Part shown: piece by piece, positions 33,917 to 36,687 of the stretch
How the letters are laid out: every line of letters starts with the position of its first letter
Position numbering within the stretch: position 1 is the stretch's first letter
NCBI GenBank assembly: GCA_025462645.1
Contig: JAOAPB010000001.1
Location: forward strand, 1-64,000
Reading direction: 5' to 3'
Length of the DNA stretch: 64,000 nt
Origin: Edaphobacter sp.
GTDB lineage: Bacteria > Acidobacteriota > Terriglobia > Terriglobales > Acidobacteriaceae
Notes under the pieces: generated by a model
The model's input: only the letters and a program-made list of their open reading frames with translations
What the model was told of the DNA's origin: nothing
Database searches by the model: none
Translations under genes and position numbers: made by a program

Positions 33917-34003
33917 TGGTGCCGAAGGGGGGACTCGAACCCCCACACCCTTGCGAGTACATGGACCTGAACCATGCGCGTCTGCCAATTCCGCCACTAC
34001 GGC
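33917..34003 (-). tRNA. tRNA-Leu (anticodon CAG), CCA encoded
   Basis: Read on the minus strand, GCCGTAG pairs with CTTCGGC (one T-T mismatch). The D-arm is GGCGGAATTGGCAGACGC, the anticodon stem is CATGG/CCATG with loop TTCAGGT giving anticodon CAG, a long variable arm TGTACTCGCAAGGGTGT follows, and the T-arm is GGGGG-TTCGAGT-CCCCC. The discriminator A is followed by an encoded CCA. The class II variable arm confirms leucine. Confidence 0.95.
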
Positions 34004-34154: not shown

Positions 34155-34418
34155 ATGACTGAGCCAACGAATGCAATACCCCAACCTGGGCCAGACTCCG
34201 AGAGCATTCCTGAAGATGTCGCCGTTGAGATACGCAAACTGGCCCACGAACTCAGCAACGCTCTTGAGATCATCGTGCAGACAAGTTATCTATTACATAC
34301 AACGGAGATGAAAGAACCCGCCAGTGAGTGGCTACGCATGATGGACAACGGCGTACAGAAGGCGATGGACATCAATCTCACATTGCGCACCTACATCAAG
34401 GCGCATAGTCCCAGCTAG
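34155..34418 (+). CDS. Stand-alone histidine-kinase dimerisation (DHp)-like small protein
   Basis: 87 residues. After a Pro/Glu-rich head, IRKLAHELSNALEIIVQTSYLL resembles the H-box helix of sensor kinases (compare HELxNxLxxI), and EWLRMMDNGVQKAMDINLTLRTYI fits the second helix of the hairpin. There is no ATPase domain and no sensor domain, so it cannot autophosphorylate by itself. It might act as a phosphotransfer or dimerisation partner. The convergent neighbour, six bases away, encodes a receiver-domain protein. No good SD was found. The family call is inference from helix pattern. Confidence 0.6.
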   Translation: MTEPTNAIPQPGPDSESIPEDVAVEIRKLAHELSNALEIIVQTSYLLHTTEMKEPASEWLRMMDNGVQKAMDINLTLRTYIKAHSPS

Positions 34419-34424
34419 ACGCAC

Positions 34425-34976
34425 CTACGAGCGCTTCGCGGCAGCCTTCTTTGCAGGAGACTTGGCTACTGAGTTTTTGACTGCTTTCTTCGCACTCTTC
34501 TTCGGTGCAGCAGCCTTCACGGCTTGCTTGACCGAGCCATTTTTACCAGTCGATTTTCCCGTTGTTGCAATCGCCTTCTTCGCGCCTGCGGACTTCCCGT
34601 TACTTACCTTGCCCTCGTGGGTCGAAAGAAGTCTTTCAATCTGCACCAGCAGATCCCGGACGTGCATGGGCTTGACCAACATCTTGTCGGCACCCATCTC
34701 CTGCCAGTCCTCATCGGCGATGGGAAAGGCTGTCAACAGAGCCACAGCTGGATGATAGGGGGCAGAACGGGCCGCCTCGATCACCTCGGCACCAGCCGCA
34801 TCATTCTCCATCCGCATGTCGGTGATGACCATCTGATACTCGCGGGTGTGGAGCTTCGACTTGCCCTCGCGGCCCGATGCCGCGGTATCGACCTCAAACC
34901 CGCTGATCTCCAGGATGGCTTTCATGGTTAAGAGCACGGCTACTTCATCGTCTACAAGCAGAATGCGACGTTTCAT
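34425..34976 (-). CDS. Response-regulator receiver with histone-H1-like Lys/Ala tail
   Basis: 183 residues. The receiver domain (about 1-120) is complete: acidic pair in LLVDDE, phosphoacceptor Asp in VITDMRMEN, Thr in LLTAF and Lys in LVKPMHVRDLL. There is no classical output domain. Residues from about 127 to the end form a low-complexity tail of Lys, Ala, Ser and Pro (AAPKKSAKKAVKNSVAKS, PAKKAAAKRS), like histone H1 or AlgP-type tails that bind DNA non-specifically. The next gene, on the other strand, is the lone DHp-like protein. A role in phospho-controlled nucleoid binding is speculative. Confidence 0.88.
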   Translation of the reverse strand: MKRRILLVDDEVAVLLTMKAILEISGFEVDTAASGREGKSKLHTREYQMVITDMRMENDAAGAEVIEAARSAPYHPAVALLTAFPIADEDWQEMGADKMLVKPMHVRDLLVQIERLLSTHEGKVSNGKSAGAKKAIATTGKSTGKNGSVKQAVKAAAPKKSAKKAVKNSVAKSPAKKAAAKRS

Positions 34977-35217: not shown

Positions 35218-35844
35218 ATTCCACCGATTGATAAACGTTCCGCCAAGTCCTTTATTCGTACCAACGAGCGCATCCGCGCCCGCGAAATTCGCGTCATCGA
35301 CGAGAATGGTGAGCAACTCGGCGTCATGGCCCCCTTCGACGCCCTCAAGATGGCCCGCGAACGCGCCCTTGATCTTGTAGAAATCTCTCCGAACGCCGTG
35401 CCTCCCGTGTGCAAGATCCAGGACTACGGCAAATTCCTTTACGAAAAGGATAAGAGTGAGCGAGCAGCCCGCAAAAAACAGAAGGTCATCGTCATCAAAG
35501 AGGTTAAATTCTCTGTCACAGTCGACGAACACGACTACCAGACAAAGAAGAACCAGGCGGTTCGCTTCCTGGGCGAGGGCGATAAGGTAAAAGCTTCGCT
35601 TCGCTTCAAAGGCCGCCAGATGGCTCATCGCGACCTTGGCTACAAGATTATCAATCGCCTGATCCTCGATATCGGGGATGCTGGCCTCGTCGAATTCATG
35701 CCCCGCATGGAAGGCACTACGCTGCACGCCATCCTTGCACCATCGAAGAAGGCCGAAGCCGCCCCCAAAAAACCTGCCGGGCCGTCGACGCCCCAGGCTG
35801 AGAAGACAACCGCGCCTCCTGCCTCACCTGTCGCTCAAGCCTAG
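35218..35844 (+). CDS. infC: Translation initiation factor IF-3 with AUU start
   Basis: The track ORF begins at an internal ATG (35326) and lacks the N-terminus. Reading upstream in frame gives RSAKSFIRTNERIRAREIRVIDENGEQLGVMAPFDAL, the standard IF-3 beginning, with no ATG, GTG or TTG but an ATT at 35218 that has GGAGG six bases upstream (a second ATT at 35227 is possible). The AUU start is the classic autoregulated start of infC. The C-terminal domain (VKASLRFKGRQMAHRDLGYKII) is followed by a Pro/Ala/Lys tail of about 35 residues (APKKPAGPSTPQAEKT). IF-3 binds the 30S subunit and checks start codons. rpmI and rplT do not follow. Confidence 0.95.
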   Translation: MPPIDKRSAKSFIRTNERIRAREIRVIDENGEQLGVMAPFDALKMARERALDLVEISPNAVPPVCKIQDYGKFLYEKDKSERAARKKQKVIVIKEVKFSVTVDEHDYQTKKNQAVRFLGEGDKVKASLRFKGRQMAHRDLGYKIINRLILDIGDAGLVEFMPRMEGTTLHAILAPSKKAEAAPKKPAGPSTPQAEKTTAPPASPVAQA

Positions 35845-36266: not shown

Positions 36267-36437
36267 ATGAAAACCATCATCCGCGCCTTCGTCCTCGTCC
36301 TCGCCATCACCGGCGCAGCAGCCTCCACCCAGATCGCCTCCGCCTCCGCTCAGACCAAGGTCACGGTTGCCAAGACCAGCGCCATGCCCGTTCCCATGTG
36401 CGCTCCCGATGATCCCAATGCCTGCGGCTTCCGCTAG
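36267..36437 (+). CDS. Tiny secreted peptide, copy 1
   Basis: 56 residues, partly hidden in the track by a longer ORF. A signal peptide (MKTIIRAFVLVLAITGAAAS) ends at a probable ASASA/QT cleavage site. The 28-residue mature peptide ends in MPVPMCAPDDPNACGFR, where two cysteines seven residues apart could form one small disulfide loop. Its mature part is identical in the second copy 79 bases downstream. It precedes a multi-pass membrane protein. No family is recognised. Signalling, structural or toxic roles are all possible. Confidence 0.7.
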   Translation: MKTIIRAFVLVLAITGAAASTQIASASAQTKVTVAKTSAMPVPMCAPDDPNACGFR

Positions 36438-36516: not shown

Positions 36517-36687
36517 ATGAAAAACATTATCCGCACTTTCGTCGTCGTCCTCGCCCTCACCGGTGCAGCAGCTTCCACCCAGATCGCCTCCGCCTCTGCC
36601 CAGACCAAGGTCACCGTTGCCAAGACCAGTGCCATGCCCGTTCCCATGTGCGCTCCCGATGATCCCAATGCCTGCGGCTTCCGCTAG
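36517..36687 (+). CDS. Tiny secreted peptide, copy 2
   Basis: 56 residues with the same layout as copy 1: signal peptide MKNIIRTFVVVLALTGAAAS, cleavage near ASASA/QT and the same 28-residue mature part ending MCAPDDPNACGFR. The signal region differs by a handful of residues, while the mature coding region differs by only two or three silent changes, so the product is conserved. This frame is absent from the track. It lies 97 bases before the membrane protein gene with no terminator seen between, so they may be co-transcribed. Confidence 0.7.
   Translation: MKNIIRTFVVVLALTGAAASTQIASASAQTKVTVAKTSAMPVPMCAPDDPNACGFR

Follow-up and report, generated by a model that had tools for sequence, protein, structure and literature searches.

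Can a DHp domain encoded as a protein of its own serve, together with the response regulator encoded beside it, as a minimal phosphorelay? This question is raised by a locus in the window, a stretch of 64,000 nucleotides from Edaphobacter sp. (assembly GCA_025462645.1, contig JAOAPB010000001.1), in which the gene of an 87-amino-acid protein converges with the gene of a receiver that carries a positively charged tail. To our knowledge, all known DHp phosphotransferases retain an ATPase-like domain in degenerate form. If a natural DHp is conserved with nothing attached, this would show the hairpin alone under selection, and phosphatase could be told apart from phosphotransfer chemistry in a minimal system. 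The signaling network of the Acidobacteriaceae, an abundant group in soil, would moreover gain an uncharacterized component. The tailed receiver would provide an unusual output if binding by its tail depends on phosphorylation.

The initial annotation had placed the two genes on opposite strands and six bases apart, and our inspection confirmed this arrangement, with positions 34419–34424 separating the two stop codons. The locus contains the following features:

34155–34418, forward strand: 87-amino-acid protein, predicted stand-alone HisKA-type DHp
34245–34247, forward strand: codon of H31, the predicted phospho-acceptor, followed by that of the acidic E32 (H+1)
34257–34259, forward strand: codon of N35 (H+4), the position needed for HisKA phosphatase activity (PMC3510030)
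34425–34976, reverse strand: 183-amino-acid single-domain response regulator with a C-terminal tail
34614–34976, reverse strand: receiver domain, residues 1–121
34428–34613, reverse strand: Lys/Ala-rich, histone-H1-like tail, residues 122–183, net charge +18
33917–34003, reverse strand: tRNA-Leu(CAG), the divergent conserved neighbor of the small gene
35326–35844, forward strand: infC (IF-3), the usual divergent neighbor of the receiver gene, given from the first ATG (the true start is probably upstream)

Identity of the small protein

Homologs of the small protein were detected in 218 of 300 Acidobacteriaceae genomes at E ≤ 1e-3 (200 of the 300 were counted as strong) and are stand-alone ORFs of about 75–100 amino acids. 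In an alignment of 33 diverse members, R27, H31, N35, E38, Q42, L46, W59, and R78 are invariant and residue 32 (H+1) is always Asp or Glu; the conservation among 55 members from named records agrees with this alignment, and H31 and N35 are invariant in both sets. Its conservation across most of the Acidobacteriaceae shows the small ORF to be a real gene. Sequence divergence was concentrated at third codon positions (about 0.5–0.6, compared to 0.12–0.42 at positions 1 and 2), which indicates that the protein is under purifying selection. We also considered a pseudogene or a fragment of a kinase, both of which were ruled out by the constant length, the invariant residues, and the third-position bias of the divergence.

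The H-box (LAHELSNALEII, residues 29–40) contains a phospho-acceptor-type His31, an acid at H+1 and Asn at H+4, as in HisKA domains, within a region of kinase-like hydrophobic spacing. Neither Pfam nor NCBIfam yielded a match for the window protein itself; Pfam HisKA (PF00512) was matched marginally by 20 of the 33 family members, at E-values of up to 10 with a best value of 9e-5. Run against 396 genomes of the phylum, a profile of the family recovered the H-boxes of complete histidine kinases, with E-values from 1e-5 to 1e-7 per genome, together with a small number of additional short ORFs. Structure prediction, which had been named beforehand as the test for a DHp-like hairpin, returned two long antiparallel helices (residues 20–48 and 56–84; pLDDT 95–98; AlphaFold2, single chain). 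Among solved structures, Foldseek placed the isolated GacS DHp first as a match to this hairpin (rmsd 1.2, probability 0.98, E 0.58). None of the Foldseek E-values was significant, as expected for a two-helix hairpin, de novo bundles followed closely behind the GacS DHp, and many unrelated folds matched as well. Searched with the profile of the family, the sequences of solved structures gave nothing relevant, including no match to Spo0B. A monomeric HPt domain was ruled out, as the protein has two helices only and no HPt match in Pfam.

That the protein has no kinase domain, as the initial annotation had asserted, follows from its length, which leaves no space for one. The HATPase_c (CA) domain of histidine kinases is absent, and the sequence stops after helix 2, with no residues past the hairpin that could form a C-terminal CA-like domain of the Spo0B/ChpT type. 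Based on the conserved H-box residues, the HisKA matches, the reach of the profile to true kinases, the predicted hairpin, and the GacS match, we conclude that the small protein is almost certainly a HisKA-type DHp without a CA domain. A helical hairpin of another function, such as a scaffold or a nucleic acid-related protein with a superficial likeness to DHp, would accord with the silence of Pfam on the window protein, the non-significant Foldseek E-values, and the near-fixed linkage of the gene to tRNA-Leu(CAG). Such a hairpin is nevertheless very improbable in view of the invariant His, the Asp or Glu at +1, the Asn at +4, the kinase-like hydrophobic spacing, the fact that 20 of 33 members match HisKA, and a family profile that singles out the H-boxes of true kinases. 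Literature searches for a DHp-only protein found no described example and, as far as our searches show, the small protein is undescribed.

Short stand-alone DHp-like ORFs (H-[RDQ]-L-N-N-Q-L-G) were also observed in other families of the Acidobacteriota (L241:3952–4128, L243:3573–3767, L242:3882–4082, and L240:3697–3906). In two other families, such ORFs have the His and Asn-Asn at +3/+4 and a variable H+1 residue. Those of L241 and L243 adjoin genes for an NtrC-type regulator, a sigma-70 factor, and a hybrid histidine kinase, a two-component context that speaks for a role of such proteins in phospho-signaling. A further DHp-like ORF of 70 amino acids (WLHDLNNRLGTI; L244:3890–4072) lies near FliL and FlgE-like genes and is possibly a flagellar or chemotaxis phosphatase. 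The presence of DHp-like ORFs in further families suggests that DHp proteins without a CA domain may occur more widely in the phylum.

The receiver and its tail

The description of the neighboring protein as an intact receiver was borne out by a PF00072 match (E 4.6e-17) and by five catalytic residues (D9, D10, D53, T82, and K102), none of which varies among 58 relatives. At the switch position, which is usually aromatic, these relatives have Met, Leu, or Val. The predicted structure shows a confident fold except around residues 81–110 (pLDDT about 75); helix 5 extends to residue 130, and the tail beyond it is unstructured (residues 131–183 mostly at pLDDT < 50). The best NCBIfam match was CpdR, with 52.7 bits against a cut-off of 180 bits. 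Like the single-domain response regulators CheY, CpdR, and DivK, the protein combines an intact receiver with the lack of a folded output domain, but it differs from them in the residue at the aromatic switch position and in its polycationic tail.

The 62 residues of the tail comprise 27% Lys, 24% Ala, and 3% Pro, with no acidic residue. The tail is thus long, disordered, Lys/Ala-rich, and highly positive in the manner of histone H1 or AlgP. It had been called Lys/Ala/Pro-rich, which is apt for Lys and Ala and for its disordered, polycationic nature, but not for Pro, so that “Lys/Ala-rich” is more exact. Such tails are rare within the same genome, where filtering 464 kb for the same composition yielded three ORFs. 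On contig C61 of this genome (L289:1775–2662), a 295-amino-acid ORF was observed in whose product a very acidic stretch precedes a long histone-H1-like tail of KKAPAKKAA repeats. Among the sampled relatives, tails were long only in the genera g1, g32, and g64 (median 75 amino acids, charge +24.5), whereas those in the other genera were short (median 31 amino acids, charge +6); the H1-like tail is a feature of one clade only. The long tail is kept in g64 and in the checked g32 genomes in which the two genes lie apart, showing that tail and adjacency are independent of each other.

The H1-like C-terminal domains of AlgP and PhaF bind DNA, and AlgP sits at polyphosphate granules (PMC9239181). They share with the receiver tail the disorder, the richness in Lys and Ala, and the high net charge, a likeness in composition only; the receiver tail is shorter, contains less Pro, has no KPAA tandem repeats, and is attached to a receiver. 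The disordered polycationic tail probably binds a polyanion, for which DNA or polyphosphate are possible candidates.

Gene order, co-occurrence, and partnership

The small gene is divergent from tRNA-Leu(CAG) in nearly every locus examined, while its other neighbors change; trpC and trpF often lie beyond the tRNA gene. In genomes with the two genes apart, the IF-3 gene lay within range of the receiver in 16 of 20 loci. The ancestral neighbor of the small gene is tRNA-Leu(CAG), and that of the receiver gene is infC, both of them housekeeping genes with no relation to the pair. Across the 300-genome survey, the two genes were adjacent in at least 33 of the 175 genomes that have both, a lower bound because some distant genomes had coordinates for one gene only (apart in at most 142 of 175). 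Joined blocks were found only in two genera, g1 and g32 (13 of 19 genomes of the latter), where the order is trpF-trpC-tRNA-Leu, small gene, receiver, infC; in 43 named loci, 6–665 bases separate the two genes. Terriglobus roseus DSM 18391, a cultured relative, is among the genomes in which they adjoin. The receiver gene was found in none of 40 small-gene neighborhoods from genomes chosen as having the genes apart, and the small gene in none of 20 receiver neighborhoods. The genes were joined by rearrangement in one lineage and are not an ancestral module. The view of the initial annotation that they form a gene pair at one locus therefore had to be abandoned, as homologs lie apart in most genomes, the outcome that the annotation itself had named as refuting. 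An ancestral gene pair or operon was likewise ruled out by the convergent orientation and the separation in most genomes. A scan of the locus gave no promoter match and one terminator-like site, which is no more than expected by chance. Farther along the window, two tandem, near-identical ORFs of 56 amino acids (36270–36437 and 36517–36687) begin like a signal peptide and share an identical C-terminal half (QTKVTVAKTSAMPVPMCAPDDPNACGFR); judged by sequence, they look like a recently duplicated small exported peptide.

Co-occurrence across genera, which had been proposed as a check on the pairing, was in part favorable. With one genome per genus and 79 genera, 49 had both genes, 7 the small gene only, 5 the receiver only, and 18 neither, a strong association in counts that are not corrected for phylogeny. 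However, occurrence is decoupled in several genera, and in some of them one partner was missing from both sampled genomes. Pairwise distances of the small protein and the receiver were significantly correlated in 30 genomes with linked genes (partial r 0.60, or 0.53 without outliers, controlled for IF-3, TrpC, and TrpF), which exceeds the values for TrpC with TrpF and for the small protein with flanking genes (0.08 or less). In 28 genomes with unlinked genes, the partial r was 0.18 (0.05 without the three deepest genomes, 0.42 in a subset of 14 genomes), and the small protein tracked TrpC as well as or better than it tracked the receiver.

In the strictest form of partnership, the small protein and the adjacent receiver would be the exclusive partners of a dedicated minimal phosphorelay, with phosphorylation switching DNA binding by the tail. 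The adjacency in the named loci, the correlated occurrence over genera, the strong distance correlation in linked genomes, and the intact catalytic residues on both proteins speak for such a system. It is still unlikely, because the available coordinates place the genes apart in as many as 142 of 175 genomes, their usual neighbors are tRNA-Leu and infC, their convergent orientation means that they are not co-transcribed, their occurrence is decoupled in several genera, tail length does not depend on adjacency, and unlinked genomes lack a robust distance correlation. Such a minimal phosphorelay, with its chromatin-like output, is possible, but the adjacency behind it is derived and lineage-restricted. 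More generally, the small protein and the tailed receiver are both real and widely conserved, they are neighbors in a minority of relatives, and a partnership between them is plausible, most so in the lineage where the genes are linked; a partnership in trans is possible. We regard the neighboring receiver as a possible, though somewhat doubtful, choice among candidate partners of the small protein. It is distinctly improbable that a lineage-wide, CA-less DHp dimer is dedicated to this receiver as its phosphatase or relay hub, with phosphorylation controlling the binding of the H1-like tail to the nucleoid or to polyphosphate. If true, hub and tailed receiver would constitute a minimal phospho-signaling pair, and the output would be of a kind new for response regulators.

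Possible chemistry and known DHp systems

The small protein is rather likely a natural stand-alone HisKA-type DHp, presumably dimeric, that acts on phospho-receivers, with the tailed receiver as one candidate partner. Two hairpins would dimerize to a four-helix bundle and, having no ATP-binding domain, the protein would be unable to phosphorylate itself. The phospho-Asp of a receiver would dock on helix 1. From there, N35 (H+4) could position a water molecule so that the phosphate is removed, or H31 could take over the phosphoryl group and hand it on, as in Spo0B and ChpT, the functional precedents for DHp phosphotransfer (PMC3433190, PMC5231405).

Four HisKA kinases were shown to depend on the H+1 acid for the kinase reaction and on the Thr or Asn at H+4 for phosphatase activity (Willett and Kirby, PMC3510030), and the DHp of NtrB or EnvZ alone is stated to suffice for a constitutive phosphatase phenotype (PMC3510030). 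As the small protein keeps the H+1 and H+4 residues, a stand-alone DHp of this kind is expected to act on phospho-receivers. Net action as a phosphatase or phosphate sink is our tentative first choice, ahead of two-way phosphotransfer as a possible second. Counting against a phosphatase, the Pro that is usual at H+5 in kinase HisKA domains is absent from the small-protein family, which has Ala or Ser there; in CrdS, the exchange P376A reduced phosphatase activity (PMC3510030). Moreover, the H+1 acid has its role in the kinase reaction, which involves a CA domain (PMC8292422, PMC3510030), and is unnecessary for phosphatase activity, so that its strict conservation favors phospho-acceptance over a pure phosphatase. 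Retention of this acid suggests that H31 is also phosphorylated, with either a receiver (by phosphotransfer) or a kinase acting in trans as the donor.

Phosphorylation in trans would also result if the hairpin formed mixed dimers with the DHp of a complete histidine kinase, which it might alternatively block in its activity. The conservation of the H+1 acid throughout the family despite the missing CA domain and the dozens of HATPase_c proteins in the genome would fit mixed dimers. We give them a low probability, however, as no kinase gene was a constant neighbor in the small-gene loci examined and the nearest kinase DHp in the same genome was reached at E 0.009 only.

Compared to known systems, our preferred reading of a stand-alone DHp acting on phospho-receivers combines familiar and unfamiliar traits. 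The small protein shares with the HisKA DHp domains of the kinases NtrB, EnvZ, and CrdS the His, the acid at +1, the Asn at +4, the hydrophobic spacing, and the helical hairpin, but it is a separate protein of 80–100 amino acids without CA domain and sensor. Spo0B has an H-box of the H-D-x-x-N type, like that of the small protein, and carries a C-terminal CA-like domain that the small protein does not have. Spo0B is a DHp-based phosphotransferase built from two hairpins (PMC3433190, PMC5231405), the architecture presumed for the small protein. ChpT is a dimeric DHp four-helix bundle that passes phosphate to receivers (PMC3433190), to which the small protein would correspond if it forms the presumed dimer, and PhyT is described in the same terms (PMC5898713). 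The small protein differs from ChpT in lacking both the C-terminal degenerate ATPase-like domain and the Pro kink in helix 1.
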